From Scilla litardierei (lineage: Eukaryota; Streptophyta; Magnoliopsida; Asparagales; Asparagaceae), in contig CM061141.1 of assembly GCA_030789695.1 (NCBI GenBank), forward strand, positions 325,609,938 to 325,673,937: DNA of 64,000 nt, in the 5' to 3' direction. Position numbers and translations under genes: made by a program. A model generated the notes under the pieces. The model had not been told where the DNA came from. It searched no databases and worked only from the letters and a program-made list of their open reading frames with translations. Positions 20,718-51,391 of the stretch are shown here, one piece after another. The first letter of the stretch is position 1. Each line of letters begins with the position of its first letter.

Positions 20718-20722
20718 TTGGT

Positions 20723-24266: not shown

Positions 24267-24278
24267 AAATTCATAGCT

Positions 24279-26573: not shown

Positions 26574-27153
26574 TCTTTTAGGACCCAATGACCTTGGGTA
26601 CCATGGAATGATATTTCTTATCTTTAGGTACTCAAGAAAAAGAAAAGGAGCAACAAATCAAAATTTAGCTCCAAGAATAATCAGATACTCGATAGCGGGT
26701 GTTCAAAACACATGACGGGTGAAGCTCAATTGCTCTCCGGAGTGGTTGCCCATTGAAAATGGGAACCGATTAGTCTTTGGAGGCAACGAGAGCAGAACCA
26801 TCATTGGTGTTGGTAAAGTTGGTAATCCTTCTAAACCACCAATAAGTGATGTTTACCTTGTTAAAGGATTAAATCACAATCTTATTTCAATAAGCCAACT
26901 TTGTGACAAAGGTTACAAAGTTAGCTTTGCGAAAGGAATGTGTCATATTTTAAGAAAAGATAATAATGATTTGTTATTTTCTGGCACACGCCATAAGGAT
27001 ATATATATATCCTAGATATCCCCAAGTCACATGAACAATGTCTCATTGTCAACACAAGTGAACAACACTTATGGCATCGACGTTTTGGTCATGTGAACTT
27101 TGGAACACTTTTTAAGCTTTCCAAGTTAAATTCTATTAAAGGATTTCCTAAGC
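26574..27153 (+). pseudogene. Sirevirus protease and integrase zinc region (copy A)
   Basis: The active site ILDSGCSKHMTGEAQ is encoded at about 26685-26730. After a one-base gain near 26750 the next frame gives LVFGGNES, ISDVYLVKGLNHNLISISQL and stops at 27013-27015, where an extra AT in a run of ATs shifts the register. The integrase zinc region (HLWHRRFGHVNFG) can be read in 27066-27105 in another frame. Comparison with copy B shows each change directly. Confidence 0.85.
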
Positions 27154-28521: not shown

Positions 28522-28524
28522 TAA

Positions 28525-29793
28525 ATGGATGTATAAAGTGCGTTTTTAAACGGAGATGTTGTTGAGGAAGTTTATGTTTCTCAACCTCTGGGTTTTATAA
28601 ATGAAAAATTTCCAAATCACGTTTTCAAACTTAAGAAAGCACTTTATGGTTTGAGACAAGCTCCTCGAGCTTGGTATGACCGCCTAAAGAACTTTCTTTT
28701 GGATTTGGGTTTTAAAATGGGTGAAGTTGATTCTACATTATTTGTTAAGTATTCGAATCATGATATTATTTTAGTTCAAATTTATGTTGATGATATCATT
28801 TTTGGTGCTACTAACTTCACTATTTGCAAAGAGTTTTCTAATGTCATGAAGGACCAATTTGAGATGAGCCACATGGGTGAGCTCAAATATTTCTTAGGTC
28901 TCCAAATTCGCCAAATGAACGATGCAATCTTCATCCACCAAACCAAGTACACGGTGGAGTTGCTAAAGCGATTTGGAATAGAGAATGCTTCTGGCAAGAT
29001 GACTCCAATGAGCACTACTACACATCTGGATAAAGATGCGGGCGGCAAAGATGTAGACATTCGTCTATATCGAGGTATGATAGGTAGTTTATTATATATT
29101 ACTGCCAGTCGGCCCGATATTATGTTTGCTGTATATGTATGTGCTCGTTATCAATCTCAACCTAAGGAATCTCACTTGATAGCGGTAAAACGTATTTTCC
29201 GTTATTTAAGTTACACCCTCGACTACGGATTATATTATCCAAAGTCTAGCACATATGAGTTAATCTCATATAGTGACACAGATTATGCTGGATGCAAATC
29301 CGACAGGAAAAGTACTAGTGGCACTTACCATTTTATAGGAAATTCTCTTGTCTCTTGGTTTTCCAAGAAGCAGAATTCCGTATCACTTTCAACCACCGAG
29401 GCGGAATATATTGCCGCCGGTGCTGCGTGTGCTCAGGTTTTTTGGATGAGACACACTCTTAAAGACTTTGGTATAAACTGTGATACTTGCCCTATCATGG
29501 TGGACAACCAAAGTGCAATATGTCTCTCTAATAATCCGGTACACCATTCCCGTTCTAAACACATAGATGTCCGTCACCATTTCCTAGATTATCATGTTGC
29601 TAAAAAGGACATCATTTTAGTGTACATTGAAACCCAGAAGCAAATTGCCGATATTTTCATGAAACCACTCAAGGAAGACTCCTTTGTGCGGTTACGTCGA
29701 GAATTGGGGATTATGGGTGAATCCGAGATATATGATTCATATTTTTCAATAATCTTGCATGATAATAATTTTCTTTATATATGCTCATGCTAG
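28525..29793 (+). pseudogene. Sirevirus reverse transcriptase and RNase H (copy A)
   Basis: Same frame as the preceding segment, with a further TAA near 28534-28536, then open from about 28537. [11 protein letters not shown] at about 28783 is the polymerase catalytic motif. RNase H motifs are [38 protein letters not shown] and KQIADIFMKPL. The usual stop after GESEI (about 29729) is lost here (TAT where copy B has TAG), so the frame runs 21 codons longer. Beyond the two upstream stops the domain looks complete. Confidence 0.9.
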
Positions 29794-29979
29794 ATGTGTT
29801 GGGATTTTTGGATTTATGGTTGGATTTTCGGAATTTATACTAGAATTGTTCATGAACGTCGTATTTATATTTTTCGATGTTTTATGGGGTAGAATAATGA
29901 TGTGTGAGAGTATTTCGATGTATCGTCCAAGTGCTCTTAGGAGAGAAATCAAAATTTCTGATTTTCAAACTTTTGGACT

Positions 29980-30172
29980 CTTTTAGTCGGTCCCAGTTCA
30001 GTCATCGACCGACTAGATTCAGTTCTAGTCGGTCAGTGAATGAACTTAGACCGACTAGATCTTGCCCTATTTTTGACTTTGGCTGCTGTTTGCACTTAGT
30101 CGGTCCAAGCACATTGGCCGACCGACTAGATTGCATTCTAGTCGGTTAGCACTTGTACTTAGACCGACTAAA
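29980..30172 (+). promoter_or_regulatory. Internal dyad array of Sirevirus A upstream of the extra ORF
   Basis: Two nested inverted-repeat units of the same TAGTCGGT/ACCGACTA type as the LTR array, with different outer arms (AGTTCA with TGAACT; AAGCACA with TGTACTT). They lie between pol and the extra ORF, about 40 bases before a TATA-like CTTATACC (30212-30219) and a pyrimidine-rich run (30265-30310). This suggests an internal promoter for the extra ORF. Confidence 0.75.
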
Positions 30173-30509
30173 TGCGTCAGGGGCAGCTATGTCTTTTGGC
30201 ATTCCGATCGACTTATACCCTCTCAACACCGATTAGTTTTCTTTCTAATCAGTGCGAAAACTCTCCTCAGCCCTAAAACCCCTCGTCTCCTCTCCTCCCT
30301 CCACATTGCGCCGCCACTTCCGGCCTCCGTCCGCTGTCGCAGATCTCTCATCTACCTCCAGTCAACCTATGGTATCACTTTCTCTCAGCTTTTAGGGTTA
30401 GATTTCAGTTCATTTCGTTGATTTCCGTCGCTTTAGGGTTTGTATTAGGGTTTCTTCGTTCGATTTTATGTCGATCTCGTGCGTTGGTTTGTGTTGTCTC
30501 GTCTCGATC

Positions 30510-32085
30510 ATGGCGAAGACACGTCTCCTTATCCGTCCATCTAGTCCGTCTCCCATGACCGTTGAGTCTCCTCCTACGGACCCCCTCAACCCAAACGTCG
30601 AGCTAAAACCACTCCCTCCTCTTCCTCACCTCCCCTCAAGAAGAAGAGGACTTCCAAGCCCAAACCCCCATCTCAACCTCATCCCAAGCCCCGAACCAAG
30701 ACCAAAGAGAAAATCTTGACTCCAGGCCCCTTCCGTGCTCCCTCTCCTCCCGATGACTCTGACGAAGAGTATATTCCTGAGTCTGAGCCTACCGCTAGGG
30801 CTTCTACTCCTCCTCCTCGATCTAGCTCTCGTCCGTCTAAGGGGAAGGCTCCCATGCCTTTGGGTGGTGTCGATATTTCGTTATGTCACGATGACCCTAT
30901 GTGTCTCGCGGCATACAATCGTATCGAGCACTGTCCATTGATATTAGAGCACTTCATTCAGTTCTCCGATTTTCGACAACTCGCCGATCTTCTTTCCTAT
31001 AGCGGCCTCTTAGACTATCTTCGCCATGACCCCAAGGCGAACCCTCACCCGTATCCCCGACTCGTCAAATTATTCTATGCAAATTGAGTACGGGGTGAGT
31101 ATGACGACACCCACTCCATTGAGACCACTGTCTTGGGGACACCTATTGTCCTCACGACAGAGATTTAGGGGAGTTGATTGGTGTCTCATCCTCTGGCCTG
31201 CTTCCTTCTGATATCTCTGTGGATGATATCCATGATCTTGACCAGACCATGCTTGTCGAGATGTTCCATGTCATCCCTCCCGCCATGATTGGCGTCCCCT
31301 CGAAATCATTTAAGCCTAACGCTTGGGTCCTCAATCTTATCTTGAAGTCGTGCCTCCTACCGAAGTACGGCTCGTCTAGCTTACCCTCCCATCTGTTCCT
31401 CAAGCTGATCTACGCTCTTTTCATGGGGAGCGAGATCAATTGGGCTCGTATTAACTTAGATAAGATGTACTCCTTTGAATGCATCCAAAAGTCCACCAAA
31501 TCTGCTCACATCCCATATCCTTGTCTGTTGACCCTTGTATTTCGTCACTTCGATGTCCCTCTCCCTCCTGATGATCAATGTCCATTGGGTCCTTCCCTAA
31601 ATGCGACAGCCGTCAAGAAGTCTCTTGCAGCATTACGTCACGTTCAGAGGACTACCCCTTCTGCCACCGAGGGTGCCTCTTCAGCTGCTCCACCTCCTCC
31701 GTCACTCGCTGAGTTTGCAGTTTCTCTGCGACGTGTGGAGTCTCGTGTTTCTCGTTCTGAGGTGATGCTAGCTCGCATCTGTTCTCACTTAGGCATTGAG
31801 GTTCCTCCTTCAGTTTCTGACGAGGAGGAAATGGATGAGGCTGATCTCCAGGATCTTGTTGGATCTACTCCTCGTGCCCCAGAGGGTACGTCTGCTGCTG
31901 CTACTTCTGCTGGTGCTCCTGAGAGCACACCTGCTGCCCCCATTCCTTCGGTGGATACTTCTGCTGGTGCTCTCGAGACCACTCCTATTGCGACTCTCCC
32001 GTCTGTGGACACTCCAGTCGACCCAGTGACCACCACCCCTTCTGCAGAGCCTGCTGCTGCTGCTGATCCTCCCTCCGCCTCCTGA
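30510..32085 (+). pseudogene. Extra 3' ORF (env-like position) of Sirevirus A
   Basis: Likely start ATG 30510 (MAKTRLLIRPSSPSP). A Pro/Ser/Lys-rich N-terminus shifts frame near 30715 into PPDDSDEEYIPESEP, then a globular part (FRQLADLLSYSGLLDYL, PRLVKLFYAN), a TGA at 31085-31087, TVLGTPIVLTTEI, a further shift near 31163, and a long open part to 32085 (303 codons) with LPSHLFLKLIYALFMG and a final Ala/Thr/Ser/Pro-rich tail. The globular part resembles plant-transposon proteins of the Athila ORF type and may be related to 47814-48785. I see no signal peptide or clear membrane segment, so 'envelope' is a positional label only. Confidence 0.7.
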
Positions 32086-32702
32086 GCTTGCGTTGGAGGA
32101 CTCTCCCATGTGCATCTGGATGATATATTTTGTAGTGAGAGAGTGGGGTAGGATAGTTGGTGGTTATGGATTTTTGATATTTTTGGATGTTTTGATGATA
32201 CACTTTTTGTTGTATGTTCCTTTTTGATGTCTGTTGAGACATATGTTGTTTGATGTGCTCCGATCTGAGGATCGTTTATATGTGTGTTGGCGGATGTATA
32301 CTTTTGATGTACCTAGTTAGATATATATATATACATCATGTTGACGTTTACTTCATTGTGCGTATTATATTATTTTTGTCTCTGATGTTGATTTCGTCGC
32401 TCGAGGATTATATTGATTAAATAGAAATTCTTTCTATGAAAACATAGAATTGTTTTTCATGCACTAAATTCATCAAGAATGTTGATATTGGAGAGTATGT
32501 TCCATAACTCAATACGTGAAATTGATTTGAGTTTTGATGATTTTATTTTTCGATTATCGACTATGGTCTCGTTGGCACGTTTGGATTTACTTCATATTTT
32601 ACTTTGGTGTCATTTGGACCGTGGTCGTATTCTACGACTCCCGTGCTTTTATTTGTAGCCATTGTTGTTGTCGTTAATCTCCTCCCACTCTTTTTGCTAA
32701 TG
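32086..32702 (+). other. 3' untranslated region of Sirevirus A
   Basis: No gene. It contains a short (AT)n at about 32321-32333, the position at which copy B carries a long (TG)n. Confidence 0.7.
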
Positions 32703-32999
32703 CCAAAGGGGGAGAGAATTAATAATGACGATGTGCTAAATGATAATTTAAAGCAATTTACCATGAATCTAATTTGATATGTTATATTCAAGGGGAGTTA
32801 AGATATAAAAATGGATTTAGATCCTAAATTTCAATAATTGGATTCACTTTTTATACTTTCATCGTCTGCTTGATGCTTATGATTATTATTTTGTATGGAA
32901 TTAACGTGTCATCAATGCAGGGGGAGTAAGTAAATTTCATTTGAATCATTATTATTGATTATTATTTTTGTTGGTTTGTCATCACCAAAAGGGGGAGAA
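32703..32999 (+). other. Multiplied polypurine tracts of Sirevirus A
   Basis: Four purine tracts in about 300 bases: CCAAAGGGGGAGAG (32704), AAGGGGAGTTAAG (32790), GCAGGGGGAGTAAG (32917) and CAAAAGGGGGAGAA (32986-32999); the last abuts the 3' LTR. Repeated tracts of this kind are a known Sirevirus trait. Confidence 0.9.
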
Positions 33000-34719
33000 T
33001 GTTAAGTATTGATTCCTCGGATTTAGTTTTGATGATGAACCAACATAAATATCGTGAACTAACTCTTTGTGAGCGTAGTTATGGAGACCGTCGCCAAAAT
33101 TCTATGTACATCAAAAGCGACGTCTCAAGACTTCTAAAAGCGCGTGATCGTGTGCCTGAAGCTTTGTTGAAGCTCTAGAAGCATTATTGAAGTCAAGAAG
33201 ATTCGATTGAAGCTTTGAAGACGGTTCGTCAAGTTTTATTTATAGTCTTCTAGCTTCTTTTCGTAGAATGTTAAGCCTTGAATAGATCTTACATTATTAT
33301 CTTCACAACGCTCATATCTTAGAGCTAGGATTATCTTATAAGATCATAGAATCTTTTTCGAAGCTTCACGCTTCATTTCGCGGCTTCTTGTGCATCTTAG
33401 TTGGTTCAAGAAGAAGAACCAACCGACTAGATGACAATCTAGTCGGTCGGTAATCCTTCTTGAACCGACTAGATCTCCTTGCTAAATTCAACATCTTCAC
33501 TGTTGACCAATTAGTCGGTCCAAGAAGGTTCACCGATCGACTAGTTGTCAAACTAGTCGGTTTGGAATCATTCTTAGACCGACTAGTTAAGACTTCATTT
33601 TTCAGCCCGAGCTAATGTGTACAGTTAGTCGGTCCAAGAACATTCATCGATCGACTAGTTGTGAAACTAGTCAGTTGGAATTTGTTCTTAGACCGACTAG
33701 CTCTCTTTGAATTCAACCTATTCTATTTCAACTCTTAGTCGGTCAAAGAACACTCCCCGACCGACTAGTTGTCAAACTAGTCGGTTGGCAAGTCTTCTTA
33801 GACCGACTAGTTCTAACTCCTTGAATTCACCTTATTGGCTGTGAACTAATTAGTCGATCCAAGAAGAACCACCGACCGACTAGTTAAGAAACTAATCGGT
33901 CAGTGATCCTTCTTAAACCAATGAGACTGCTTCAGAAATAGATCCGTTGGAGCATTAAATGCACGAATTTTCCCTCTCTCTCCTCTCTATCCTATATATT
34001 CTTGAGATGCTTCTTCGTAGCATTCAAGGCTGTCATTATTGAGTTTTAAAGATTAAAGAGAGAGCATTTAATTCTCATTCCAAGCTCACTCATTTCTCAC
34101 AAGAATCTCTCACTCACTCTTATTCCTCAAGAGAGATTCTCATTGATTGTGAGCCACTCAAGCTAGGAGCTTGAATCGAAGTCTCCAACATCTCCCTAGC
34201 CACATATTGCTGATCATCTTGGTGGAGCTAGGGTTTGGTGACTTCTTCTTCCTCAAAATCCTCCTTGCCCTAAAATCGTAAGTTTACTCAAGGCATAGGA
34301 TTTTGTTGGTAAGTGTTTTTATATTTCATTTAATTTGATATTAAGTTTTTCTCTCTGTTGTGAAAGAAGTGTGTGATCCCGGTTTGTGGGAGTCACATTT
34401 TCATTTGTGTATGATTTGATCTTGTAGAGGTTTTCTACAAGAATTTCATAGTGCAAATTTGAGTTAGAGGTTTCTAACTCAAGTAGCCGGAGGGGATCCG
34501 GGTGTTTGGGACGTAGGATCACCGGGAACAAGTCGGGGAGACTTGAGTGGATCTGAACCCGTTATATCGATTGTTTGCATTGCCTTTTATTGTTGTCAAT
34601 ATTTTCTTTCCGCATTGTTGGTTGAGGTTGCACGATAATTAGGAATAATTACTCTTGATTATTTTAAAGTACTATTCACCCCCCTCTAGTACTTGTGCAG
34701 TAGCTATTAGGGCATTACA
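33000..34719 (+). repeat. 3' LTR of Sirevirus A
   Basis: 1720 bases, partner of 22525-24247, with the same dyad array (33398-33930) and TATA box. It is followed by AAGTT (34720-34724). Confidence 0.95.
33398..33930 (+). promoter_or_regulatory. Nested dyad array, U3 of Sirevirus A 3' LTR
   Basis: Five units corresponding one to one to 22927-23460, with scattered point changes. Being in the 3' LTR, this copy would be transcribed as the end of the genomic RNA and could fold there. Confidence 0.85.
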
Positions 34720-34724
34720 AAGTT

Positions 34725-35668
34725 AAGGGATATTCTGTTGTTATCAAGACTTATTGATGCATGTCTAGAGAGTTGTTCTATGAGGGGATGAGAAAGGATG
34801 TCACGGAGATAGTGGCAAAGTATGGTATGTGCCAGCATCACAAATACATGGCAACAGCTCTTGGGGCTGCTACAGACTCTATCCTTGCTAGATCGAGTTT
34901 GTGAGAAGCCGACGATTGATTTTATTGAAGGATTACTGAGGTTAAATGGGTATTCAGTCATCCTTATTTAGGTCGACTGCCTCAGCAAGTATGCGTACTT
35001 TGTGGCACTCCGACATCCCCACAACATAGTGACTGTTGCATTAGCATTCATACAAAAGGTGGTGTGGTTACATGGGATCCTGGAATCCATCGTGTCAGAT
35101 TGAGATCGGGTTTTTTCTTAGCCATTTTTGGAGGGAGATATTTAAGATGCAGTGGATGTCTTGAAGATGAGCCCAAGTTATCATCTCCAAACAGACGGCC
35201 GAACTGAAATTGTCAATATGAGCATCAAGACCTATTTACAGTGTTTTGTTTTAGAGGCCCAGAAGAAGTGGGCAAAGTACTAGTACAACACGTCTTATCA
35301 TACCATCACTCAAACTACGTCTATCAAAGTTTTATTTAGGCATGATCTTATACTTCTATTGCACTATGGCCACAGGTCTATACCAATTTCTCAAATGGAC
35401 AAGTACATGGAGGAGAGGGATTGGGTACTAGAGGAGTTGAAGCGACATCTGATGAGAGCACATCAGATTATGAAGACACATGTAGATGTGCAAAGAGATA
35501 TGTACAATTTGCAGTAGGTGACAGCGTATATTTAAAGCCGCGATTTTACCACCAAGGATCCTCAGCTCACAGGAGGAATGCGAAGCTTTCACCTCGAAAC
35601 TTTGGGCCTTACGAGATTGAGACAAGGATTGGATAGGTTGCATACCGACTTAAGTTATTGCTAGAGTC
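34725..35668 (+). pseudogene. Decayed Reina-like chromovirus integrase, middle fragment
   Basis: Continues 22519 after the AAGTT duplication. With stops and shifts it reads as the zinc region (ELFYEGMRKDVTEIVAKYG, CQHHKYMAT), the catalytic core (HGILESIVSD, then LKMSPSYHLQTDGRTE, about 35159-35210) and the DNA-binding domain (VGDSVYLKPRFY, KLSPRNFGPYEIETRIG, 35515-35640). It stops at the CACTA duplication of Sirevirus B and resumes at 56990. This is the oldest recognisable element in the middle of the window. Confidence 0.8.
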
Positions 35669-35673
35669 CACTA

Positions 35674-37401
35674 TGTAATGCCCTGATAGCTACTGCACAA
35701 GTACTAGAGGGGGGGAATAGTACTTTATAATAATCAAGAGTATAATTCTTAATTATCATGCAAACTCAACCAATAATGCGGAAATGAAAATAGACAACAA
35801 TACAAGACAAGCGCAAACAAGCGATGTAACAGGTTCGGATCCACCAAAGTCTCCCCGACTTGTTCCCGGTGATCCTACGTCCCAAACACCCGGATCCCCT
35901 CCGACTACTTGAGTTAGAATCCTCTAACCCAAGTTTGCACTATGAAATTCTTATAGAAAACCTCTACAAGATCAAATCATACACAAATGAAAATGTGACT
36001 CCCACAAACCGGGATCACAAACTTCTCTCACAACCGAGAGATAAACTTGCAATATCAAAGTAAATGAAATAATAAACACTTACCAATAAAATCCTATGCC
36101 TTGATTAAACTTACTGATTTTAGGGTAAGGAAGATTTTGAAGGAGAGAATGTCACCAAACCCTAGCTCCACCAAGATGAACATCGATCGAAGGCTAGGAT
36201 GGAGTTGGTGACTTTGAATCAAGCTCTTGGCTTGAGTGGCTCACAATGAAGATAATCTCTCTTAAGGAAATTAGGGCTCAAGGAGTTTGGAGAGATTCTT
36301 GTGAGAATGAGGAAGCTTTAGAAATGGAGTTTAATGCTTTCTCTTTGATCTCTAAAACACAATAAATGTCAGCCTTGAATGCTAGGAAGAAGCATCACAA
36401 GTATATATAGGATAGAGAGAGGAGAGAAGGAAAATTCGTAGCATTTAATGCTCCAACGGCTCTATTCTGAAGCAGTCTAATCGGTCTAAGAAAGATCACT
36501 GACCGATTAGTTTGGCAACTAGTCGGTCGGTGATTCTCTTGGACCGACTAAAAGGTTCACGGCCAAGAGGGAGAAATCATGATATAGAACTAGTCGGTCT
36601 AAGAAGACTTGCCAACCGACTAGTTTGACAACTAGTCGGTTGGTGAGTGTTCTTTGACCGACTAAGAGTTGAAATACAATAGGCTGAATTCAAGGAGAAC
36701 TAGTCAGTCTAAGAACAAATTCCAACCGACTAGTTTCACAACTAGTCGGTCGATGGTTGTTCTTGGACCGATTAACGAGTCAACAGTAGCTCAGGCTGAA
36801 AAGTGAAAGTATAACTAGTCGGTCTAAGAAGGATTCCAAACCGACTAGTTTGACAACTAGTCGGTCGGTGAACCTTCTTGGACCAACTAATTGGTCAACA
36901 GTGAAGATGCTGAATTGAGCAAGGAGATCTAGTCGGTTCAAGAAGGATTCTTAACTGACTAGATGACAATCTAGTCGGTTGGTTCTTCTTCTTGAACCAA
37001 CTAAGATGCACTAGAAGCCGCGAAATGAAGCGTAAAGCTTCGGGGAAGTTTCTATGGGCTTCTAAGATAATCCTAGCTCTAAGATATGAGCGTTATGAAG
37101 ATTATAATGTAAGTCCTACTCAAGGCTTAACATTATACGAAAAGAAGCTAGAAAACTATAAAATAAACTTGACGAACCGTCTTCAAAGCTTCAATCCGTA
37201 TCTCTTGACTTCAATAATGCTCCTAGAGCTTCAATGAAGCTTCAGGCACACGATCACGAGCTTTGAGAAGTCTTGAGATGTCGCTTTCGATATACGTAGA
37301 ATTTTGGCGACGATCTCCATAAATGCGCTCACAAAGAGTTACTTCACGATATTTATGTTTGTTCATCATCAAAACCAAATCCGGGGAATCAATACTCAAT
37401 A
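35674..37401 (-). repeat. 3' LTR of Sirevirus B
   Basis: 1728 bases. On the plus strand it begins TGTAATGCCCTGATAGC and ends ATACTCAATA (the last CA-complement base changed). It carries a dyad array at 36475-37010 and TATATATAG at 36401-36410. Confidence 0.93.
36475..37010 (-). promoter_or_regulatory. Nested dyad array, U3 of Sirevirus B 3' LTR
   Basis: Five units, same order as in Sirevirus A but with its own substitutions, several in the outer arms. The 36478-36560 unit next to the TATA box is the most diverged. Confidence 0.85.
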
Positions 37402-37710
37402 TTCTCCCCCTTTTTGGTGATGACAAACCAACATAAATAATAATCAATAATAATGCATCAAAAGAAATTTACTTACTCCCCCTGCATTGATGGCACGTTA
37501 ATTCCATATTAAATAATAATCATACGCATCAAGTAGACGAGGAAAGTATAAAATATGATCCAATTATTGAAATATAGGATTTGAAATCCATTTTTATATC
37601 TTAACTCCCCCTGAATCTAACATATCAAATTAGATTCACGGTAAATTGCTTTAAATTATCATTTAGCACATCGTCATTATTAATTCTCTCCCCCTTTGGC
37701 ATTAGCAAAA
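37402..37710 (-). other. Multiplied polypurine tracts of Sirevirus B
   Basis: Minus-strand purine tracts at 37403-37416 (next to the LTR), about 37474-37488, 37603-37616 and 37687-37700, matching the four tracts of Sirevirus A in order and spacing. Confidence 0.9.
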
Positions 37711-38064
37711 AGAGCGGGATGAGATCAACGACACAACAATGACTAAAATAAAAAGCACGAGAGTCGAAGAATACGACCACGGTTCAAATGACCCCAAAGT
37801 AAAATCACGAAGAAAATCAAAGTGTGCCAACGAGACCATAGTCGAAAATCGAAAAAAAATAAAATCATCAAAACTCAAATCAATTTCACATATTGAGTTA
37901 TGGAACATACTCTCCAATATCAACATTCTTAGTGAATTTAGTGCATGGAAAACAATTCTATGTTTTCATAAAAAGAATTCTATTTAATCAATATAATCGT
38001 CGAACGACGAAATCAACATCAGAGACAAAAATATAATGTGCACACTGAAGTAAATGGCAACACG

Positions 38065-38065
<1 letters not shown>

Positions 38066-38135
<70 letters not shown>
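38066..38135. repeat. (TG)n microsatellite, about 32 units
   Basis: Uninterrupted TGTG... from 38066 to 38130 followed by ATATA. It lies in the 3' untranslated region of Sirevirus B at the site of a short AT repeat in Sirevirus A. Open frames through it (repeated CV or HT) are artefacts. Confidence 0.97.
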
Positions 38136-38368
38136 ACATGGGACATCAAAAGGTATACCTCCGCCAACACAAATATAAGCGATCATCAGATCGATGCACA
38201 TCATACAACACATGTCTCAACAGACATCAAAACGATCATACATCAAAAAGTATCATCAAAACATCCAAAAATACATCATAAATACATAACCACCCAACTA
38301 TCTTACCCAACTCTGTCACAACAAAATAAATCATCCAAGTGCACATGGGAGAGTCCTCCAACGCAAGC

Positions 38369-38694
38369 TCAGGAGGCAGAGGCATGATCTACATCAGTAG
38401 CAGGCTGTGCAGAAGGAGTGGTATTGGTCTCTGGGTCGACAGGAGTGTCCACCGAAGGGATGGTGGCAGCAGGAGTGCTCTCGGGAGCACCAGCAGAAGT
38501 AGCAGCAGCAGACGTACCCTCTGGGGCACGAGCATGAGAATCAACAAGCTCCTCAAGATCAACGGCGGAGGGAAGAGAGGAGACGCGGGGGATAGGGTTG
38601 AGGAGAGATAACGCACCGATTAGAATGAGTGCTAATCGGTATAGGCGGGATATAAATCGATTCAGAATGCTAAAAGACATAACTGCCCCTGCGC
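38369..38694 (-). pseudogene. Extra 3' ORF remnant of Sirevirus B (internally deleted)
   Basis: The minus-strand tail EGTSAAATSAGAPESTPA matches the C-terminal tail of the Sirevirus A extra ORF. Upstream it joins abruptly, near 38590-38600, to sequence equivalent to the 5' leader of that ORF, so the start codon and the whole globular part (about 1.5 kb) are gone. The dyad array before it is kept. Confidence 0.8.
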
Positions 38695-38886
38695 AACTAG
38701 TCGGTCTAAGTTCAAGTGCTGATCGACTAGAATGCAATCTAGTCGGTCGGCCAATGAGCTTGGACCGACTAACTGCAAACAACAGCTGAAGTCAAAAATT
38801 AGGGCAAGATCTACTCGGTCTGAGTTCAATCACCAACCGACTAGAATGCAATCTAGTCGGCCGGCCAATGAACTGGGACCGACTAA
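38695..38886 (-). promoter_or_regulatory. Internal dyad array of Sirevirus B
   Basis: Two nested units matching 29980-30172. One unit shows a paired change relative to Sirevirus A: left arm AAGCTCA for AAGCACA, right arm TGAACTT for TGTACTT, so the pair stays complementary. A TATA-like TTTATATCC (minus strand, about 38648-38656) follows. Confidence 0.8.
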
Positions 38887-39116
38887 AAGAGTCCAAAAAT
38901 TTGTGAATTCGAAATTTTGAGTTCTCTCCTAAGAACACTTGGATGAAACATCAAAATACTCTCAAACATCATTATTCTACCCCATAAAACATAGAAAATC
39001 TTAAATACGACGTGCAAATCGAAAATCCAATCACAAATCCAGAAAATCCCAACAATTCTAGCATGAGCATATATAAAAAAAATCATTATCATGCAAGATT
39101 ATTGAAAATATGAATC
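38887..39116 (-). other. pol to array spacer of Sirevirus B
   Basis: Matches 29730-29980 of Sirevirus A. No gene; short hydrophobic frames read here are also present in A but degenerate. Confidence 0.5.
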
Positions 39117-40796
39117 CTAAATCTCGGATTCACACATAATCCCCAATTCTCGACGTAACCGCACAAAGGAGTCTTCCTTGAGTGGTTTCGTGAAAATATC
39201 GGCGATTTGCTTCTGGGTTTCAACGTACACTAAAATGATGTCCTTTTTAGCAACATGATCATCTAGGAAATGGTGACGGACATCTATGTGTTTTGAACGG
39301 GAATGGTGTACCGGATTCTTAGAGAGACAAATTGCACTTTGGTTATCCACCATGATAGGGCAAGTATCACAGTTTATACCAAAGTCTTTAAGTGTGTGTC
39401 TCATCCAAAGAACCTGAGCACATGCAGTACCGGCAGCAATATATTCCGCCTCGGTGGTTGAAAGTGATACGAAATTCTGCTTCTTGGAAAACCAAGAGAC
39501 AAGAGAATTTCCTACAAAATGGCAAGTGCCACTAGTACTTTTCCTATCGGATTTACATCCAGCATAATCTGCGTCACAATATGAGATTAACTCATATGTG
39601 CTAGACTTTGGATAATATAATCCGTAGTCGAGGGTGTAACTTAAATAACAGAAAATACGTTTTACCGCTATCAAGTGAGATTCCTTAGGTTGAGATTGAT
39701 AACGAGCACATACACATACAGCAAACATAATATCGGGCCGACTGGCAGTAAGATATAGTAAACTACCTATCATACCTCGATATAGACGAATGTCTACATC
39801 TTTGCCGCCCGAATCTTTATCAAGATGTGTAGTAGTGCTCATTGGAGTCTTCTTACCAGAATCATTCTCCATTCCAAATCGCTTTAGCAACTCCACCGTG
39901 TACTTGGTTCGGTGGATGAAGATTGCATCGTTCATTTGGCGAATTTGGAGACCTAAGAAATATTTGAGCTCACCCATGTGGCTCATCTCAAATTGGTCCT
40001 TCATGACATTAGAAAACTCTTCGCAAAGAGTGATGTTAGTAGCACCGAAAATGATATCATCAACATAGATTTGAACTAAAATAATATCATGATTCGCATA
40101 CTTAACAAATAGTGTAGAATCAACTTCACCCATTTTAAAACCCAAATCCAGAAGAAAGTTCTTTAGGCGGTCATACCAAGCTCTAGGAGCTTCTCTCAAA
40201 CCATAAAGTTCTTTCTTAAGTTTGAAAATGTGATTTGGAAATTTTTCATTTATAAAACCCGGAGGTTGAGAAACATAAACTTTCTCAACGACATCTCCGT
40301 TTAAAAATGCACTTTTTACATCCATTTGAAAGAGTTTAAAATCTTTATGGCATGCAAAAGATAACAACAACCTAATAGATTCTAATCTAGCTACAGGAGC
40401 AAAGGATTCTTCGAAGTCTATACCTTCCTCTTGCCTGTAGCCTTGAGCTACTAACCGAGATTTGTTCCGGACGACGTTTTGGTTCTCGTCGGTCTTATTC
40501 TTGAAGATCCACTTCATTCCTATAACGGTGTGGCTCTTCGAAGGCAATGGAACAAGATCCCAAACCTCATTCCTCTCAAACTGAATGAGTTCCTCCTCCA
40601 TGGCTAGGATCCAAGAACTATCTTCGCACACTTCCTTAATATTCTTTGGCTCTATCGAAGAGGCAAAGGCACAATGAGCGAAGTAGTTGACTTGAGATCT
40701 CGTCTTGACACTATGAAGTATGTTGCCAATGACTTGCTCATGGGGATGGACACGAACTGTATGAAGTCGTTTGGGAACTCCCTGATCACTAGAACA
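39117..40796 (-). pseudogene. Sirevirus reverse transcriptase and RNase H (copy B)
   Basis: A 504-codon open frame from the GTG at 40631 is preceded in register by EPKNIKEV and more. [52 protein letters not shown] (near residue 189 of that frame), [28 protein letters not shown] and [11 protein letters not shown] are all present, and the frame ends at TAG after CESEI. This is the best preserved polymerase in the window. Register with the integrase is lost near 40797 (one base fewer than copy A). Confidence 0.9.
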
Positions 40797-41592
40797 TTCG
40801 CAAAAGATTCATCAGTAGGGTTAGTATCAATAGAATCAGTAGAATTAGAATTACCAATACAATCACATATAACTTCCATGGAGTCATCATCATTAGTAAT
40901 TCTAGGAGGGACAAAATTTTCATTGAATGAAACATGAAGTGATTCCTCGATCGTTGAGGTTCTTTTGTTGTATATCCAGTAGGCTTTGCTACGGGAGGAA
41001 TATCCAACAAATATCCCCGCATTGGATCTTGGATCAAATTAGTCCAAACTCCCATACATGTTTTTGATAAAACATTTTGCACCAAAAACTCGAAAATGTT
41101 TAACTTGAGGCAATCTACCAAACAACAATTCATAACAAGTTTGTTTGGTGCCGGGCCTCAAGAGTATCCTATTAAACACATAGCAAGCGGTATGTACCGC
41201 TTCCACCCAAAATTGATGGCCAAGTTGGCTATCATCAAGCATTGTGTGAGCACATTCCACTAGCGTCCTATTCTTTCTCTCAACAACACCATTTTGAGGG
41301 GGTGCGCGAGGGAAAGAAAAGGTGTGGGTAAAACCAACTTGATCACAAAAATTTGAGAAAGACTCATTCTCAAATTCCCCTCCATGATCACTACGAATAA
41401 TGACAAGGGTGGTTCCAATGAGATTTTGTACTTTCTTCACAAATATTGTGATGTTTTCAAAAGCATCATTTTTATTACTTAAAGAAAATACCCAAGTAAA
41501 TCTAGAAAAGTCATCAACGATGACAACTCCATATCGAGCATTCCCTAATGAAGCAACTCTAATTGGCCCAAAAAGATCTAGATGTAAAAAGC
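40797..41592 (-). pseudogene. Sirevirus integrase (copy B)
   Basis: Frame with [49 protein letters not shown] and [14 protein letters not shown] replaces a lysine codon near 41039, and one extra T near 41590 separates it from the upstream part. Catalytic residues seem kept. Confidence 0.88.
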
Positions 41593-42272
41593 TTTAGAGG
41601 CCGTTTAGATGAAATGCTTTTCTTAGGGTTGAATGACGATTTGGGAAGTTTTCCTCGTTGACACGAGTCACAAAAGCTTTTCTTTTGGAAGGAAAGCTTA
41701 GGAAATCCTTTAATAGAATTTAACTTGGATAGCTTAAAAAGTGTTCCAAAGTTCACATGACCAAAACGTCGGTGCCATAAGTGTTGTTCACTTGTGTTGG
41801 CAATACGACATTGTTCATGTGACTTGGGGATGTCAAGGATATATATATCCTTATGGCGTGTGCCAGAAAATAACAAATTATTATTATCTTTACTAAAAAT
41901 ATGACACATTCCTTTCGCAAAGCTAACTTTGTAACCATTGTCACAAAGTTGGCTTATTGAAATAAGATTGTGATTTAAGCCTTTAACAAGGTAAACATCA
42001 CTTATTAGAGGTTTAGATGGGTTACCAACTTTACCAACACCAATGATGGTTCCGCTCTCGTTGCCTCCAAAGACTACTCGGTTCCCATTTGCAATGGGCA
42101 CCACTCTGGATTGTAATTGAGCTTCAGCCGTCATGTGTTTTGAACACCCGCTATCGAGTATCCACCCATCCTTGGAGCTAAATTTGGATTTGTTGCTCCG
42201 TTTCTTTTTCTTGAGTACCTAAAGATAAAAATATCATTCCATGGTACCCAAGATCATTGGGTCCTAAAAGAT
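41593..42272 (-). pseudogene. Sirevirus protease and integrase zinc region (copy B)
   Basis: 191 codons open from about 42134: MTAEAQLQ, VVFGGNESGTIIGVGKVG, SDVYLVKGLNHNLISISQL, HLWHRRFGHVNFG and CDSCQRGKL. The protease active site DSGCSKH lies just upstream at about 42135-42160. The region ends at the TAGAC duplication of the Athila-like insertion. Confidence 0.88.
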
Positions 42273-42524
42273 TAGACTGACGTGCGTTTATATTTCATAT
42301 ATTCACGTACGTTTTCTTTTGTGTTTTTCCGTGTTTTTTCGCCGTCTCTTATTCGTTTTCGTGTATTTTCCCGTTTTCTTTCACTTTTCTTTGTTTATCC
42401 ATGATTGCAGGGGATTGACCACGTAGGGGACGTTTAACGATGATATCCCAAGTCCCCGGAGCAACGGGAGAAGTCACGCGTGATCCAGGGGGTCAAACGT
42501 CGAAGAATTCATCTTTCAGCCCCT

Positions 42525-42875
42525 CACCCGGTCGGTTGGTCATCTCCAACCTATCGGGGGATGCACGCGTGCACCACCCGGTCTCTGCCGCAGCTCACAA
42601 AGAAGTCACCCGACCGGTTCGTAGACCGGTTCAGCGGGGGCTGTTCTCTGTTTTCTCGAAGCAAAACGCCAACCGATCGGGTGACTCTCACCCGATCGGT
42701 TCATCTGTAGCTGAAGAAGAAGAGCTGAAGACACGGACGTCGAACCGATCGATTCACCCGACTGCTCCAAGATCCAACCGGTCACTCAAGAACTCACCCG
42801 ACCGGTTCATGTGATCGGGTGAAAGCTCGCCGTTTTCTGTTATTAATTTGTAACGGATCAACCGATCGGTTGATG
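42525..42875 (+). promoter_or_regulatory. CCGATCGG dyad array, 5' LTR of the Athila-like element
   Basis: Many copies of AACCGATCGGTT, ACCCGATCGGGT and mixed or CCGACCGG variants. Pairs form larger hairpins, such as AACCGATCGGGTGA with TCACCCGATCGGTT around 3 bases (about 42670-42702). The last palindrome ends 12 bases before the TATA box. Confidence 0.85.
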
Positions 42876-42883
42876 CGAAGGTC

Positions 42884-42891
42884 TATAAATA
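42884..42891 (+). promoter_or_regulatory. TATA box of the Athila-like 5' LTR
   Basis: TATAAATA just after the dyad array; the same box is at 52018-52025 in the 3' LTR. Confidence 0.8.
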
Positions 42892-43822
42892 GAACCCCTA
42901 GGGTTCCAGAAACGGGAGCTGTTATTTTTTCTACTGTTTTATCTCCTTGTGACGGCTGTAATTGTTACTCTTTTGTAAGTTTTCAGATCTTTCTAAAATT
43001 TTAGTATTGTCTTTATTACTCTATTACTTCCGCATTGCAATTGTCCGATTATGATTCCAACGGTTAAATTTCATTTAGATCGCTTTTTCATGAATTTTTG
43101 TGAGTAGTTCCCAAATCTGGGATTTTGGTGGAAACCCCTTCGGGGGCTCTTCCCGATGCGTCCATAGGGTTAGGAAATCGATAGGGAGTAGGAATCTAAC
43201 GGTTACGCGGGGTGTTTCATTGTCATCGGCGGGAAAAAGACCGCCTTTGACCGTTGGGCCAAGGGGGAATAAACTTGGCGGTTGACTCCCTAGCCATAGC
43301 TCACACCCTTAGCGTAGACGCCGAATCCTAGCACGCGGGAGTGGCAGGATGAGACGTTGGGAGATATCGTTACGGGCTTAGTGCTCCCGGGATCGATCAG
43401 TGTTAATGGACACGGGAGTGCCCACTGATCGAATCCGGGAAGTCCGGTGTATCATCCTGGGCACCGACCGGAATATCGGGCCCATGGGACGCCGGTACCA
43501 CTTTCAGAGGCAACGTCTCACCATTAGACCCTAATCCCGATCGCTATCCATACCCGTAGGCCGTATCGGCGAGAGTCTCTCATCGGGTTGGAAACCAAAG
43601 TCCCGGGTTTTCTTTCTTGTTGTTCATACCCTTTTATTTCCTTTCGTGACAACCATTCACCGATTCGGGCTAGCTCGCCCCTCGGGGTGATTTAGGTCCT
43701 ACCTGACCCAAGCACAACCTCGCCTCCCTGAGTTCGATATTCCCGCACCCTACATTAACCGTGAAACTTGCGGTAAACGACACCGCGCCGCCGTAAAGCA
43801 AGCGGGGCGCCGGTCAAGTTTA

Positions 43823-43840
43823 TGGCGCCGTTGTCGGGGA
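43823..43840 (+). other. Primer-binding site, Asp-tRNA type
   Basis: TGGCGCCGTTGTCGGGGA, six bases inside the LTR. It matches the complement of the plant Asp tRNA 3' end at 17 of 18 positions by memory. This primer is usual in Tat/Athila-type elements. Confidence 0.9.
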
Positions 43841-44017
43841 GGCAACGTGCTTGTTATTCTAGGATCTCTTGAACCCTCGTGTCTAGCTCACATCCCTACC
43901 TCGCGATAATTTTCGCATTCTCCTTTTTCTTTTTTCTTTTTTTCTTATTTTTATTTTTATTTCTTATTTTATCTGTTTCTTTTCCACTTGTCGCTTCACG
44001 GGTGTTTGTTGTTTTTC

Positions 44018-46759
44018 ATGCGCAGGAGTTCAAGGAGTCTTGACGACTTGATTCCCCTCGATCCAGAGATTAACGCCACCCTTAGGCGTTTGGCCGCCGA
44101 GAAGCGAAGAAGAGAAGATCCCGAATCTATGGAGGAGAACACCCCACCTCGCAAGTCTATGCTGGAGTACTCGATGCCATCCATCGAGTCGACTTCCGCC
44201 ATCCGATCTCCAGCTATTGCGGCCCAAAGCTTTGAGCTGAAGCCGTCTCTAGTGACATGGATCCAGCAGGACCAGTTTGCGGGTGCACCCATGGAGAGCC
44301 CAATCGAGCACATAGACTCCTTCTTGGAGAAGTGTGACACCTTCCGGATTAATGGTGTCACGACAGAGGCTATCCGTCTGAAGCTGTTCCCCTTCTCTTT
44401 GCGAGACAAAGCCAAGCAATGGCTAAGGGGGAAGGACCCCAACACTTTCAACACCTGGGAGAAGCTCTCCAACACTTTTCTGACGAAGTTCTTTCCTCCG
44501 GGGAAGACCATGAAGTTGAGGAGTGAGATCTCCTCCTTCTCCCAGGCCAGCCACGAGTCCTTGCATGAAGCTTGGACGAGATATAAAGAGATGCAAAGAA
44601 GATGCCCTCACCATGAGCTTCCGAAGTGGCAGATTATTAATCTGTTCTACAATGGGTTGAGGGATGACCTGAAATCTTCTATGGACGTCACGGCTGGGGG
44701 TTCCTTCATGTCTAGGAGCGAGGAGGATGCCGGGCATATTCTGGAAAATATGGCATCCAACAATGAGCGGTGGTGTGACGAGAGAGCCACACCAAGATCC
44801 GGGGGTATACACAGAGTCGAGGACGTCGACAAACTTTCAAGCAAGTTCGACTTGCTTTCGACCCAGATCTCCGCACTAATGGTAGGAGCCGGTGGGGCTG
44901 GTACACAGCAAATTTCTGCGGTAGCGTCCGAATTCTTTGGGGAATTCGACGGTGGTGACATCTCACCACCGTTGGATCAGGCGAGCACACTATTTTACAA
45001 CCCCACGGGAAATGTGCCGTATCCGCCAAGGACCAACTCCAACCCGGTCTACTCTCCAAACAACCGGAACCACCCCAACTTCAGTTACCGGCCACCATTT
45101 CAGCCCTCGCCGCCTCAACAGCCGCAGCAACAAACTTATCAGCCGGCTAGGCCACAGCAGAGCCCACTTCAGCAGCAACCACTTCAGCAGCAACCACTTT
45201 AGCAGCAATTTTACGCCCCCAAGAATCAGCAGCCGTTCCAGCAGCAGCAGCAGTATGGCCAACAGAGGGCCGTCTCTCCGGTTGAGTCTCTCTTGACTCA
45301 ATATATTACCAACCAAGAGAAGATCAATCAAAAGCTGGAAATGGGTCAGTGGACCCTCACGGACCAAGTAACCCAGCTGGGGTTACAAGTGGCGAACCTT
45401 GCAAGGTCACAAAACCAATTACCGCCACAACCGGAGGTGAACCCGAGGGGAGCAACCCAAACATCGGCACTCATGCACGAGCACGCAAATGTGTCCGCTA
45501 TCGTTCTGAGAAGCGGGACACAAATTCCTACTAGAGTGCCCCCTAGCAACCCGGAAGCACCATTGGTCGTTGAGAGACCGACCGAAAAATCAAATGACGC
45601 CGGTGCTTCGTCATCAAATCCTATGACTCCGGAGGGAGTCTCTGAAGAAGAGAAGAAGAAGGAGGAAGAGCGCCCGAAAGTGTATAAACCCGTTGTGCCA
45701 TTTCCACAACGGTTGGCTCAGGCAAAAATTGATGAGAAATATGGCAAGTTCTTCGCCATGGTCAAGGACCTAAGCCTGCAAATCCCCTTCCTAGAAGCAA
45801 TCGAAACAATCCCCTCCTATGCAAAATTCTTGAAAGATTTGATGACTAGAGGGTCTAGAAAGGAGAAAGTAGTGCTGACGGCGGAATGTAGCGCTCTTAT
45901 TCAGAGGGCAAACCCGCCGAAACTCAAGGACCCGGGGAGCTTCTCTATTCCTTGCACGATCGGGGCGGTGAAGATTCATCGTGCACTCGTCGATCTAGGA
46001 GCGAGTGTTAGCTTGATGCCCTTGTCGATGTATAGAAGGATAGGAATGGGTGATTTGGAGCCCACCGGTATGACCCTACAACTAGCTGACCGGTCGGTCA
46101 AATATCCGGTGGGAATTGTGGATGACCTCCCCGTGAATGTGAGAGGGGTGCATGTGCCTGTGGACTTTGTAGTCATGGACATGCCTGAAGACGCACACAC
46201 CCCCATCATCCTGGGACGGCCCTTCATGGCCACTGCTGGCGTTCTAATAGATGTGAAGAACGAAAAACTCTCTTTGAACGTCAGCGGAGAGAAAGTTGAG
46301 TTTGATCTGGGGTTGTCCATGAAGCACCCCGATCCCCTTGATGACCCTCGATGCAATTTGCTTGAGATAGAAGAAGAAAAGGCCGCTGAAGAGAGCTCCT
46401 GGGAGATTCTCCTGAGAAACCCCCCCGATGACTTGGGGGATTCAGAAGATGGAGACGGCCCCAAGTACAAAGAAGCTGCTGGAAAACCGAGTGCAGCAAG
46501 AACGACCCCTCCCGGGTTCCCCAAGGCTCCTCCTGTGAGGAGAACGGGGAAAGAGCCCATGGACCTCACTAAAGACGAGGTCCGAATCCTGAAGAAGATG
46601 GCGGGAAGCGCCAACACCAAGGAAAAGCCCCCGGATCCCAAGAGCAAGGGGAGGGTAGTCGAGCAAGTATTTTTCCAGCCGCTGACTACTCCAAGTGCCT
46701 TCAACTCCAATGAGAAAGAGATGCCAAACTTCGGGCATCGCCCGTATCGACCACCATGA
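44018..46759 (+). pseudogene. Gag-protease of the Athila-like element (one nonsense codon)
   Basis: One frame of 914 codons from ATG 44018, broken only by TAG at 45200-45202, where two preceding repeat units (CCACTTCAGCAGCAA) have CAG. Gag core at residues ~100-255 (HIDSFLEKCDTFRING, FPFSLRDKAKQWLRG, WEKLSNTFLTKFFPP, LHEAWTRYKEMQRRCPHH). A Pro/Gln-rich repeat segment follows (~350-425), then an acidic linker and a protease with ALVDLGASVSLMP near residue 657 and IILGRPFMATAG further on. There is no CCHC knuckle. The frame ends at TGA 46757-46759 without entering a polymerase. Confidence 0.88.
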
Positions 46760-46955
46760 GCATCTCTTGCGGGCGTCGAGCCAACGACGTTAAACAAGTG
46801 CGCTTCATGGGAGGCAACCCATGTTCTAAACTTCTTCCCCACTTTTCAGCGTTATTTTTTACTTTATTTTATCTATTTTTATAAATAAAATCAGCCGCGA
46901 GAACATCCGTTCGGGGACTTAAACAAATCTATTTGTTTTTACAGGAAACAAGCCC
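46760..46955 (+). other. Post-Gag spacer where pol would be expected
   Basis: CGTCGAGCCAACGACGTTAA and GGGAGGCAACCCATG are words I associate with the 3' side of pol in Tat/Athila elements. Their position directly after Gag-protease suggests that the whole polymerase-integrase region was removed in an ancestor. Confidence 0.6.
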
Positions 46956-47303
46956 CAACCGATCGGGTGACAACTCACCCGATCGGTTGGGATGTATCAG
47001 ATACATGCCGAGATCTGTCCCCATATGACCCGATCGGTTGGGTTGCGAAGAGACCGGGTGGCAGACCGGGTGAGCTGGGGAGAACTCTCGGAAGTTTTTG
47101 GGGAATATCAACCGATCGGTTGAGTTCGAGCACGATCGGTTGACGCGACCGGGTGAGCAGCCCTAAGTTCTCGGGAAAATGAGTGGAGCGGCCAACCGAT
47201 CGGTTGACAAGTCAACCGACCGGTTCGCCTGTAGCATTTCTTCGGCAAGAATTTCGACCTAACCGTCAACCGATCGGGTGACAAGTCACCCGATCGGTTC
47301 GAC
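46956..47303 (+). promoter_or_regulatory. Internal CCGATCGG dyad array of the Athila-like element
   Basis: Three large hairpins of the LTR motif: CCAACCGATCGGGTGA with TCACCCGATCGGTTGG (46956-46992, perfect 16-base arms), AACCGATCGGTTGAC with GTCAACCGACCGGTT (about 47193-47226) and AACCGATCGGGTGAC with GTCACCCGATCGGTT (about 47267-47298), plus single palindromes between. A TATA box follows 14 bases after the last one. Confidence 0.85.
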
Positions 47304-47312
47304 TTAAAACCC

Positions 47313-47320
47313 TATATAAA
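47313..47320 (+). promoter_or_regulatory. Internal TATA box before the extra ORF
   Basis: TATATAAA followed by a C-rich stretch and a strongly pyrimidine-rich leader (47330-47530), as in many plant promoters. Position after the dyad array parallels the LTR. Use as a promoter is inferred. Confidence 0.65.
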
Positions 47321-47751
47321 CCCCCCGACATCCGCTCGTTTTCACCCTCGCCCGATCGCAAAATCCGCCGTCGTTTCGCCTTCCCCTCTTCCCCAACAAC
47401 CGATCCTCACTCCCCCACGTCCTCTACTCCTCCATTACTCCCTCTCTCCACCTCCTCCATCAATCCCTCCATCATCTACACCCTCTCTCTCCTCCCATTC
47501 CGAATTTTTGATCTAGTTTTCCCCCAAACCACACCCATCCAAAAATTCTTGCCGAAGGAGAACGCCGCGGCTCCACGCTACTCTCGCTGAACAGTGTGGG
47601 GACATCTACGAGCAAGCTCCGCCATTCCTCTTAGGTACACTCGCTCCTAAGCTCATATTTATATATTTGCCCTATTAACTGTGCTTGCTCGTTTGCTTGT
47701 GTTAGTGTGCATCCACTATTTTTGCACTCATTCTTGCTCGCACGCTCACAC

Positions 47752-48785
47752 ATGGCTCGGGATAAGGATAAGGGGAAGGGAATTATGCGGGAAGAGGAGC
47801 CGTCTCGAAAGAGATGAAAACAAACACGCCCCCCTTCCCGTACACGAGCACTTACACTTGGCCCTCCTCCGCCTGTTATCCCCCTGTGGACCCAATGTTG
47901 GGCCCGCATGGGTATATTTTTCGGAACCAGGAGCACAAAGATTTTTACCGTAGGCTCGATGCTCGAGGGCATCTATCTACTAAGTTTCCGCACGCACGAA
48001 CACTTGTCAATCTTGGTGTCTTCACCGAGGTCGAATCTCTTTTCGCTAACTTAGGATGGTTGGCCTTTCTTAATGCACATGCCATATCCTACCCGGCACT
48101 CACACTCGAATTTCTCTCTACACTTGTCTGGGAGTCCGGGTCGATCATTAAATTCAAGGTGCGTAACCGTAGTGTCACCACAAATCTGAACACGATTACT
48201 GATATATTTGGTTTCCCCAATCTCAGGGATGATTCCATCCGACACTACGGGTACACGCCCGAATTTGATGTCGATCAATTCTGGTTCCGCCTCACTATGA
48301 TCCGTGAATATCCCCGAGGAAGGGCCAAGGCCTCCTCCATCATTCATCCCGTGTTTCGTTTGGCCCACAGGATCATTTCATCTGCATTCTTTCCTAGGGA
48401 CGAGTCCGGCACCGTGACTATCCCTGACCTTTTTATCCTTTGGGCCATGACTTTCCCTTATGTCCGGGATGATGATGGAATTAGCTTCAGGGCCCCTACC
48501 GTCCCCATCCATGGCAGCGATTGGCTTGTTTACAAGCTACTCGAGATCAGCCGGGCCGGTAAGAGGAAGTTTTGTTGTGGGGGCATCATCACGATCATCT
48601 GCTCTCACGCCCAATTCAATATTACCATCCCCGATAATCTTCCAGCTGCCGCAGGACCCTCACATCTTGATATTAATGTCCTGCGGCACATCCACATGAT
48701 TAAACCCCGCTCGGATGGCCGCTTCATATTTCATTATGGCCACCCCCAGCCCCTTACACCATTCTGCCCAACCCCGCTCGCATGA
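47752..48785 (+). pseudogene. Extra ORF of the Athila-like element, N-terminal and globular part
   Basis: A probable native start is ATG 47752 (MARDKDKGKGI), one register away from the long open frame that begins at 47814 and runs to TGA 48783-48785, so a small indel near 47805-47813 is likely. The long frame (323 codons) holds a compact region (FANLGWLAFLNAHAISYPAL, EFLSTLVWES, NTITDIFGFPNL, FPRDESGTVTIPDLFILWAM) that I recognise as the Athila ORF family found downstream of pol. Role unknown; the old label 'envelope-like' has no support here in signal peptide or membrane segments. Confidence 0.75.
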
Positions 48786-51378: not shown

Positions 51379-51391
51379 GCTTGGGGGATTT
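51379..51391 (+). other. Polypurine tract of the Athila-like element
   Basis: GCTTGGGGGATTT directly before the 3' LTR start TGACGTGCG. Confidence 0.85.

Follow-up and report, generated by a model that had tools for sequence, protein, structure and literature searches.

The window analysed here is a 64-kb stretch (64,000 nucleotides) of Scilla litardierei DNA (GCA_030789695.1, contig CM061141.1, positions 325,609,938 to 325,673,937, forward strand). It contains three long terminal repeat (LTR) retrotransposons in which arrays of palindromic motifs, or dyads, are present in the LTRs and again in the interior, ahead of the site of an extra open reading frame (ORF). Sirevirus A (22525-34719, plus strand) and Sirevirus B (35673-56981, minus strand) are Ty1/copia elements; a third element, of the Athila-like Ty3/gypsy kind (42278-52947), is inserted within Sirevirus B and divides it in two. 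The LTR pair identities of A, B and the Athila-like element were 96.1%, 95.4% and 97.1%, respectively. BLAST analysis of B against A showed identities of 90.4%, 92.8% and 89.5% across three long blocks, and the two Sireviruses are copies of one Ty1/copia family. The two pieces of B share five bases at the insertion break, which is what a 5-bp target-site duplication would give. The original prediction counted three elements with the LTR-plus-internal design; arrays were present in all three, but as A and B are one family they represent two independent cases.

The Sirevirus assignment is based on a copia-type gag (PF14223) in B and reverse transcriptase (PF07727) in the pol of A, and on a symmetric CGG-CCG repeated motif (RM) in the LTRs and ahead of the envelope-like (ENV) ORF position of both. 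A C-rich stretch, a candidate for the C-rich integrase signal of Sireviruses, was seen by eye close to the Sirevirus LTR end. The Athila-like element has open frames for gag and aspartic protease (43910-46756, plus strand), identified by Pfam, with a gag of the PF03732 type. No reverse transcriptase or integrase frame was seen among its frames and Pfam matches. As there is no pol frame for phylogenetic placing, it is named Athila-like only, on its gag type and on an extra ORF of the ATHILA ORF-1 family downstream of gag, as in the Athila lineage.

The Sirevirus half-site was defined as TAGTCGGT/ACCGACTA with at most one mismatch. The repeated unit is approximately 114 bp long and comprises four half-sites, spaced 24-18-24 and consisting of TAGTCGGT or its reverse, an arrangement common to most LTR units and the internal units. 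The four LTR arrays contained 21, 19, 20 and 20 half-sites. In Sirevirus A, the 5' LTR array (22923-23450) consists of five units of four half-sites followed by a TATA box at 23520, and the 3' LTR array spans 33398-33925, both on the plus strand. In Sirevirus B, the arrays lie on the minus strand at 56058-56587 (5' LTR, with the TATA box at 55990) and 36478-37004 (3' LTR). The internal array of A (29983-30171, plus strand) comprises two units with the LTR-type spacing, and nine internal half-sites were present in A (29984-30228) and ten in B (38615-38878). The internal region of B (38615-38886, minus strand) includes the array at 38697-38886, a TATA-like box at about 38655 and a further dyad at about 38615-38640. 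The Sirevirus internal arrays match their own LTR units with approximately 70-74% identity across about 190 bases. An origin of the internal array as an LTR relic was rejected, as BLAST matches to the LTRs were confined to the arrays and the flanks were unmatched.

In the Athila-like element the motif is a different one. The sequence CCGATCGG occurs 15 times in the 64 kb, with three copies in the 5' LTR, seven internally (46959-47290), five in the 3' LTR and none elsewhere. The dyads, of the AACCGATCGGTT type, often occur as doublets, spaced by 19-22 bp in the LTRs. The internal array (46957-47299, plus strand) has eight 12-mer dyads, including three doublets at exactly 20 bp. The LTR dyads and their TATA boxes lie on the plus strand at 42526-42891 (5', TATA box at 42884) and 51640-52025 (3', TATA box at 52018). 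The final LTR dyad differs between the two ends of the element, standing alone in the 5' LTR (42860) and forming a doublet at 20 bp in the 3' LTR (51974-52005), a change of one unit during or after insertion. The BLAST matches between the internal region and the LTRs were dyad-sized only, and no BLAST match was found between the Sirevirus and Athila-like internal regions. Both designs are palindromes of palindromes.

The dyad arrays are real and more than chance would give. The largest cluster of half-sites or dyads per 350 bp was nine in A, ten in B and eight in the Athila-like element, and the maxima in 300 dinucleotide shuffles were four, three and one, respectively, which ruled out a chance origin in each element. 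Arrays had been predicted at 29980-30172, 38695-38886 and 46956-47303, and all three were found there. The 8-mers repeated in the LTRs also formed clusters inside the Sireviruses and inside the Athila-like element. Two further LTR elements in the window served as controls. In the Ty3-type element (1-6726, LTR identity 99.1%), LTR-repeated 8-mers reached at most two per 400 bp internally. The copia-type element (12942-20718, LTR identity 96.6%) had no repeated LTR 8-mer, leaving nothing for this test to score.

Copies of the elements were searched for in the 3.68-Gb assembly containing the window. The Sirevirus set comprised 22 copies (the two window elements plus 20 others, fetched from among 40 scored of 4699 candidates), and the Athila-like set comprised 21 (the window copy and 20 fetched, with 40 scored of 3257 candidates). 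Both sets were picked by array similarity, which lowers the divergence figures, and they speak only for array-bearing members.

A TATA-like box follows each internal array, as originally predicted, although the box of A is weak and that of B (TTATAT) lies near 38655. In Sirevirus A, the box is TTATACCC (30213-30220, plus strand), and its TTATA was kept in 21 of the 22 copies (L019 differs). The Athila-like box (47313-47320, plus strand) was invariant in the 21 copies and is one of three TATAWAW matches in 7577 internal bases. The predicted pyrimidine-rich leaders were confirmed. The Athila-like leader (47321-47520, plus strand) is 77% pyrimidine, a level matched by 16 of 7377 same-size windows of the same element, and the leader of A is 71% pyrimidine, matched by 56 of 8652. 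Transcription of the Athila-like extra ORF would be expected to start at the CA at 47343-47344, 31 bases past the TATA box.

The internal regions had also been proposed to copy the promoter logic of the LTR. In the Athila-like element the spacing agrees, with 12 bases between the last dyad and the TATA box in the LTR, as predicted, and 13 internally, rather than the predicted 14. In the Sireviruses, the last array half-site lies 70 (A) and 68 (B) bases from the TATA box in the LTR and about 42 bases internally, so the LTR spacing is not copied. An extra array-type dyad is present over the expected start site, downstream of the internal TATA-like box, in A (30228-30253, plus strand) and in B (about 38615-38640), and no such dyad was seen behind the Sirevirus LTR TATA box at 23520. 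The Sirevirus internal promoter region differs from its own LTR promoter in a weaker TATA box, a shorter spacing and the start-site dyad.

The comparison of A and B showed that the motifs have changed less than the bases around them. In the internal array, 4 of 80 motif bases differed, as against 34 of 198 other array bases (p = 0.0066). In the 5' LTRs the figures were 4 of 164 and 45 of 377 (p = 1.5e-4), and the other three A-B LTR comparisons pointed in the same direction (p = 0.045, 0.019 and 0.0009). As a control, the paired LTRs of a single element were compared, whose divergence starts only after insertion. No contrast was present between the 5' and 3' LTRs within one Sirevirus (motif 9/164, other 14/382; p = 0.36) or within the second (5/160 and 14/383; p = 1). 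The presence of a contrast between A and B and its absence between paired LTRs indicates that the motifs were selected while the elements were active, and neutral homogenisation was rejected for the Sirevirus family on the same two results.

Across the 22 Sirevirus copies, internal divergence was 2.9% in the half-sites, 11.3% in the spacers and 24.2% in the leader, and that of the upstream flank was 12.0% (19 copies, the three that seem to carry an additional unit being excluded). When the motif positions were shifted circularly, none of the 188 shifts gave a value as low as the real one. The arms of the start-site dyad, at 3.0% divergence compared with 23.9% in its loop, are conserved to the same degree as the half-sites; in one copy (L023) both arms were altered together. 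Some pairs of copies had nearly the same array and quite different leaders: L023 and L025 had 2 differences in the 125 spacer bases of the array and 26 in the 45 leader bases, and for L013 and L027 the counts were 4 and 10. From this contrast, Sirevirus subfamilies may swap internal arrays.

In the Athila-like family, all 40 scored copies aligned to the entire internal array with at least 97% identity. The dyads diverged by 1.9% and the spacer by 2.4% (p = 0.25), and 104 of 346 circular shifts were as low. Copies this similar leave the test too little variation, and it demonstrates no selection on the dyads. With no pol frames and at least 40 genome copies at this level of identity, the element represents a very abundant young family that probably moves with the help of another element.

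The extra ORF of Sirevirus A (30510-32082, plus strand) is frame-broken in the window, and its second half matches Transposase_32. In Sirevirus B, most of the extra ORF behind the internal array is missing; a perfect TG repeat of 32.5 copies (38066-38130) lies behind its remains. Four intact Sirevirus frames elsewhere in the assembly matched Transposase_32 at 50-62 bits, compared with a curated cut-off of 45. The ratio of nonsynonymous to synonymous substitution in the six pairs of these four copies was 0.17-0.23 for the whole ORF and 0.07-0.14 in the domain, values that show purifying selection on it. The proteins begin with basic clusters resembling nuclear localisation signals. Their highest 19-residue hydropathy values (1.55, 1.68, 1.68 and 1.82) lie inside the Transposase_32 domain, around the usual cut-off for a membrane segment of approximately 1.6, so that one stretch of the domain may be such a segment; the highest value in a 337-residue Athila-like frame was 1.36.

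The Athila-like extra ORF (47754-49750, plus strand) belongs to the ATHILA ORF-1 family and is frame-broken in the window and intact in one fetched copy (L037). The match to PF03078 was 5.7e-27 in the window and 1.1e-28 in the intact frame, which has a cluster of basic residues near the N terminus and is acidic at its end. The intact frame also matched Transposase_32 weakly and below the threshold (0.0012, 19 bits as against the cut-off of 45). Apart from such weak sub-threshold matches, Pfam identified only ATHILA and Transposase_32 in the extra ORFs. Transposase_32 (PF20167) has been called related to PF03078 (PMC11728184). Direct comparison of the Sirevirus and Athila-like ORFs was not significant by BLASTP or by hhalign; the last hhalign run aligned 213 collinear columns (probability 0.24%). 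That the two extra ORFs share an origin is thus plausible but unproved, with the Transposase_32 matches in both as its sole support. In protein searches, the Athila-like ORF piece returned six relatives and the Sirevirus piece none, scans of viral contigs gave no matches, and a PDB profile search gave one match (E = 0.22).

A genome scan for Transposase_32 returned 25844 candidate places; the 150 scored were all above the cut-off, and 20 of these loci were fetched (L051-L070). Several sit behind a copia RNase H end unlike that of A and B. In four of them (L055, L056, L058 and L063), which belong to other copia elements, the ORF lies close behind pol, and the upstream DNA fetched contained neither of the two dyad types nor a repeated 8-base inverted repeat; a universal dyad-plus-ORF cassette was rejected on these loci. 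The exact-arm dyad counter was insensitive, with known positives scoring only two. Dyads behind L063 resemble the 5' LTR of an adjoining Sirevirus. TGTTGC dyads upstream of several loci were considered as promoter arrays and rejected, as they appear, from the sequence of L053, to lie within a repetitive coding stretch.

The internal array, the TATA box and the leader probably constitute a second RNA polymerase II promoter for the extra ORF, a reading drawn from the DNA sequence. Selection on the Sirevirus half-sites and start-site dyad, the invariant Athila-like TATA box, the pyrimidine-rich leaders and the selected Sirevirus ORF all fit an internal promoter, and the original prediction is supported to this extent; the comparison of Athila-like dyads with their spacers does not add to it. 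From each internal promoter, the extra ORF would receive an RNA of its own. The dimer-type binding sites would be those of the element's own LTR, and one dimeric DNA-binding factor, most simply host-encoded, would read both the LTR and the internal arrays. Shared binding sites would mean that the full-length RNA and the extra-ORF RNA are switched together, and the Sirevirus start-site dyad may tune or repress the internal promoter. The transcription start, the factor, the co-regulation and the role of the start-site dyad are the parts of this explanation that we infer. The coordinates given here can guide the mapping of start sites, and the dyads supply DNA probes, specific to each family, with which binding could be assayed.

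Several points weigh against an internal promoter. The Sirevirus A box at 30213 is weak, the Sireviruses do not keep the spacing of their LTRs internally, and the divergence of the Athila-like dyads is not significantly below that of their spacers. The four array-less Transposase_32 copia loci limit its generality, and selection by array similarity leaves array-less members out of the sample. Hairpin potential, moreover, is an equally strong feature of the arrays.

This last point underlies the strongest rival explanation, in which the arrays act as RNA, with units folding into long hairpins for packaging, stability or small RNAs; we consider it unlikely. The folding z scores were -11.5 for the A internal region (200 shuffles) and -9.1 for the Athila-like internal region (100 shuffles). 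In 14 Sirevirus units, 69.5% of the half-site cells were paired as against 60.5% in shuffles, 20 cells were changed on both sides as against 9.6, and the covariation score was 0.240 as against 0.119, each reached in 0 of 500 shuffles. One pair was A-T in 10 and T-A in 9 of the 22 Sirevirus copies. However, two of the five pairing measures fell within the shuffles (72/500 and 418/500), the half-site letters themselves are conserved beyond what pairing alone would need, and the arrays lie directly upstream of TATA boxes in the LTR and interior alike.

Alternatively, the extra protein could itself recognise the dyads in the LTR of its element and in the promoter of its own ORF, and there activate, repress or counter silencing, which the sequences make conceivable but doubtful. 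The basic, NLS-like start, the Transposase_32 domain and the purifying selection of the Sirevirus proteins are consistent with it, as are the basic cluster and acidic end of the intact Athila-like frame. The family-specific motifs in a similar dyad layout also recall the VANC targets, which vary among related VANDALs (PMC5735166). On the other hand, OPIE-2 and PREM-2 are listed as keeping LTR dyads without ENV (PMC2829016), four Transposase_32 loci have no internal arrays, and the direct comparisons of the two ORF sets were not significant. Expression of the extra ORF by splicing or read-through of LTR-started RNA, with the array acting, for example, as an internal enhancer, is very unlikely: predictions of splice acceptors in BAGY2 and Athila, and of stop suppression in SIRE1, have been reported (PMC2829016), but each internal array has its own TATA box and long pyrimidine-rich leader, and an ENV ORF promoter is annotated in Athila6A (PMC4977677).

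The internal promoter that we favour has precedents for each kind of element. Sirevirus RM dyads in the LTR and before ENV, and the hypothesis of an internal promoter, were described by Bousios et al. in 2010 (PMC2829016). Table 3 of that source gives pre-ENV dyads in 9 of 9 ENV-bearing RM Sireviruses and 0 of 4 without ENV; six ENV-bearing Sireviruses lack RM boxes and four ENV-less ones have LTR boxes. The A/B family fits this description, with many CGG-CCG dyads in the LTR upstream of the TATA box and again before ENV. The start-site dyad, the half-site selection test and the Transposase_32 identity go beyond that source as examined, which calls the RM Sirevirus-specific; a comparable design is present here in the Athila-like element. 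In Arabidopsis, the start sites, intron and ENV ORF promoter of Athila6A were annotated by Panda et al. in 2016 (PMC4977677). Athila6A shares the lineage and an internal promoter for the ENV ORF, but no LTR-shared dyads are described in the part of that source seen, and the element here has no pol frames.

More distant systems show partial likeness, as far as the sources consulted describe them. Foamy viruses combine an LTR and an internal promoter in one retroelement, but there Tas activates both promoters, whereas the elements here have no known activator. VANC and the VANDALs combine family-specific repeated noncoding motifs with an element-encoded protein, but VANDALs are DNA transposons, and the extra protein here is only a candidate binder (PMC5735166). 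Retand and Grande have an accessory ORF between pol and the 3' LTR, and the Grande gene has its own promoter (according to a cited title) and a nuclear product; their ORF is antisense, with a TRP28 domain, and no shared LTR dyads are described in the portion consulted (PMC11963269). An internal promoter is named among expression mechanisms (PMC3414828), Diaspora is an Athila relative without an envelope (PMC1142308), and it is said still to be investigated whether Tork and Athila have similar additional ORFs and whether the proteins modulate the epigenetic state of these elements (PMC12844716).

No description of dyads common to an Athila LTR and internal promoter was found in the literature, which was searched mostly by title and abstract and with few subscription journals. 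As internal promoters had been proposed for Sireviruses and annotated for Athila6A, the general design is less new across superfamilies than originally claimed. The newer part is the dyad design shared by two unrelated retrotransposon kinds, and the rest is partly known separately. The observation stands at two cases; its interpretation, as far as the sequences allow, is likely and half already in print.

These results address the function and expression of plant 'envelope-like' extra ORFs, and the product is a candidate nuclear regulator instead of an envelope. A broader proposal, which we regard as a long shot, is that two superfamilies share a cassette consisting of a Transposase_32/ATHILA nuclear-protein ORF and family-specific dyads in its own promoter and the LTR. 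The protein would bind the dyads, switch gag-pol and its own RNA and perhaps counter silencing, as a retrotransposon counterpart of Tas or VANC. Should the dyads indeed be read by the element's own protein, plant elements of very high abundance would have a means of autoregulation or of countering silencing.

Short strings resembling host factor sites were also present in the arrays. RCCGAC, which we take to be the DREB/CBF core, occurred nine times in the 281-bp internal array of Sirevirus A and four times in 5727 other internal bases. CNGTTR, presumably the MYB core, occurred 11 times in the 356-bp Athila-like array.

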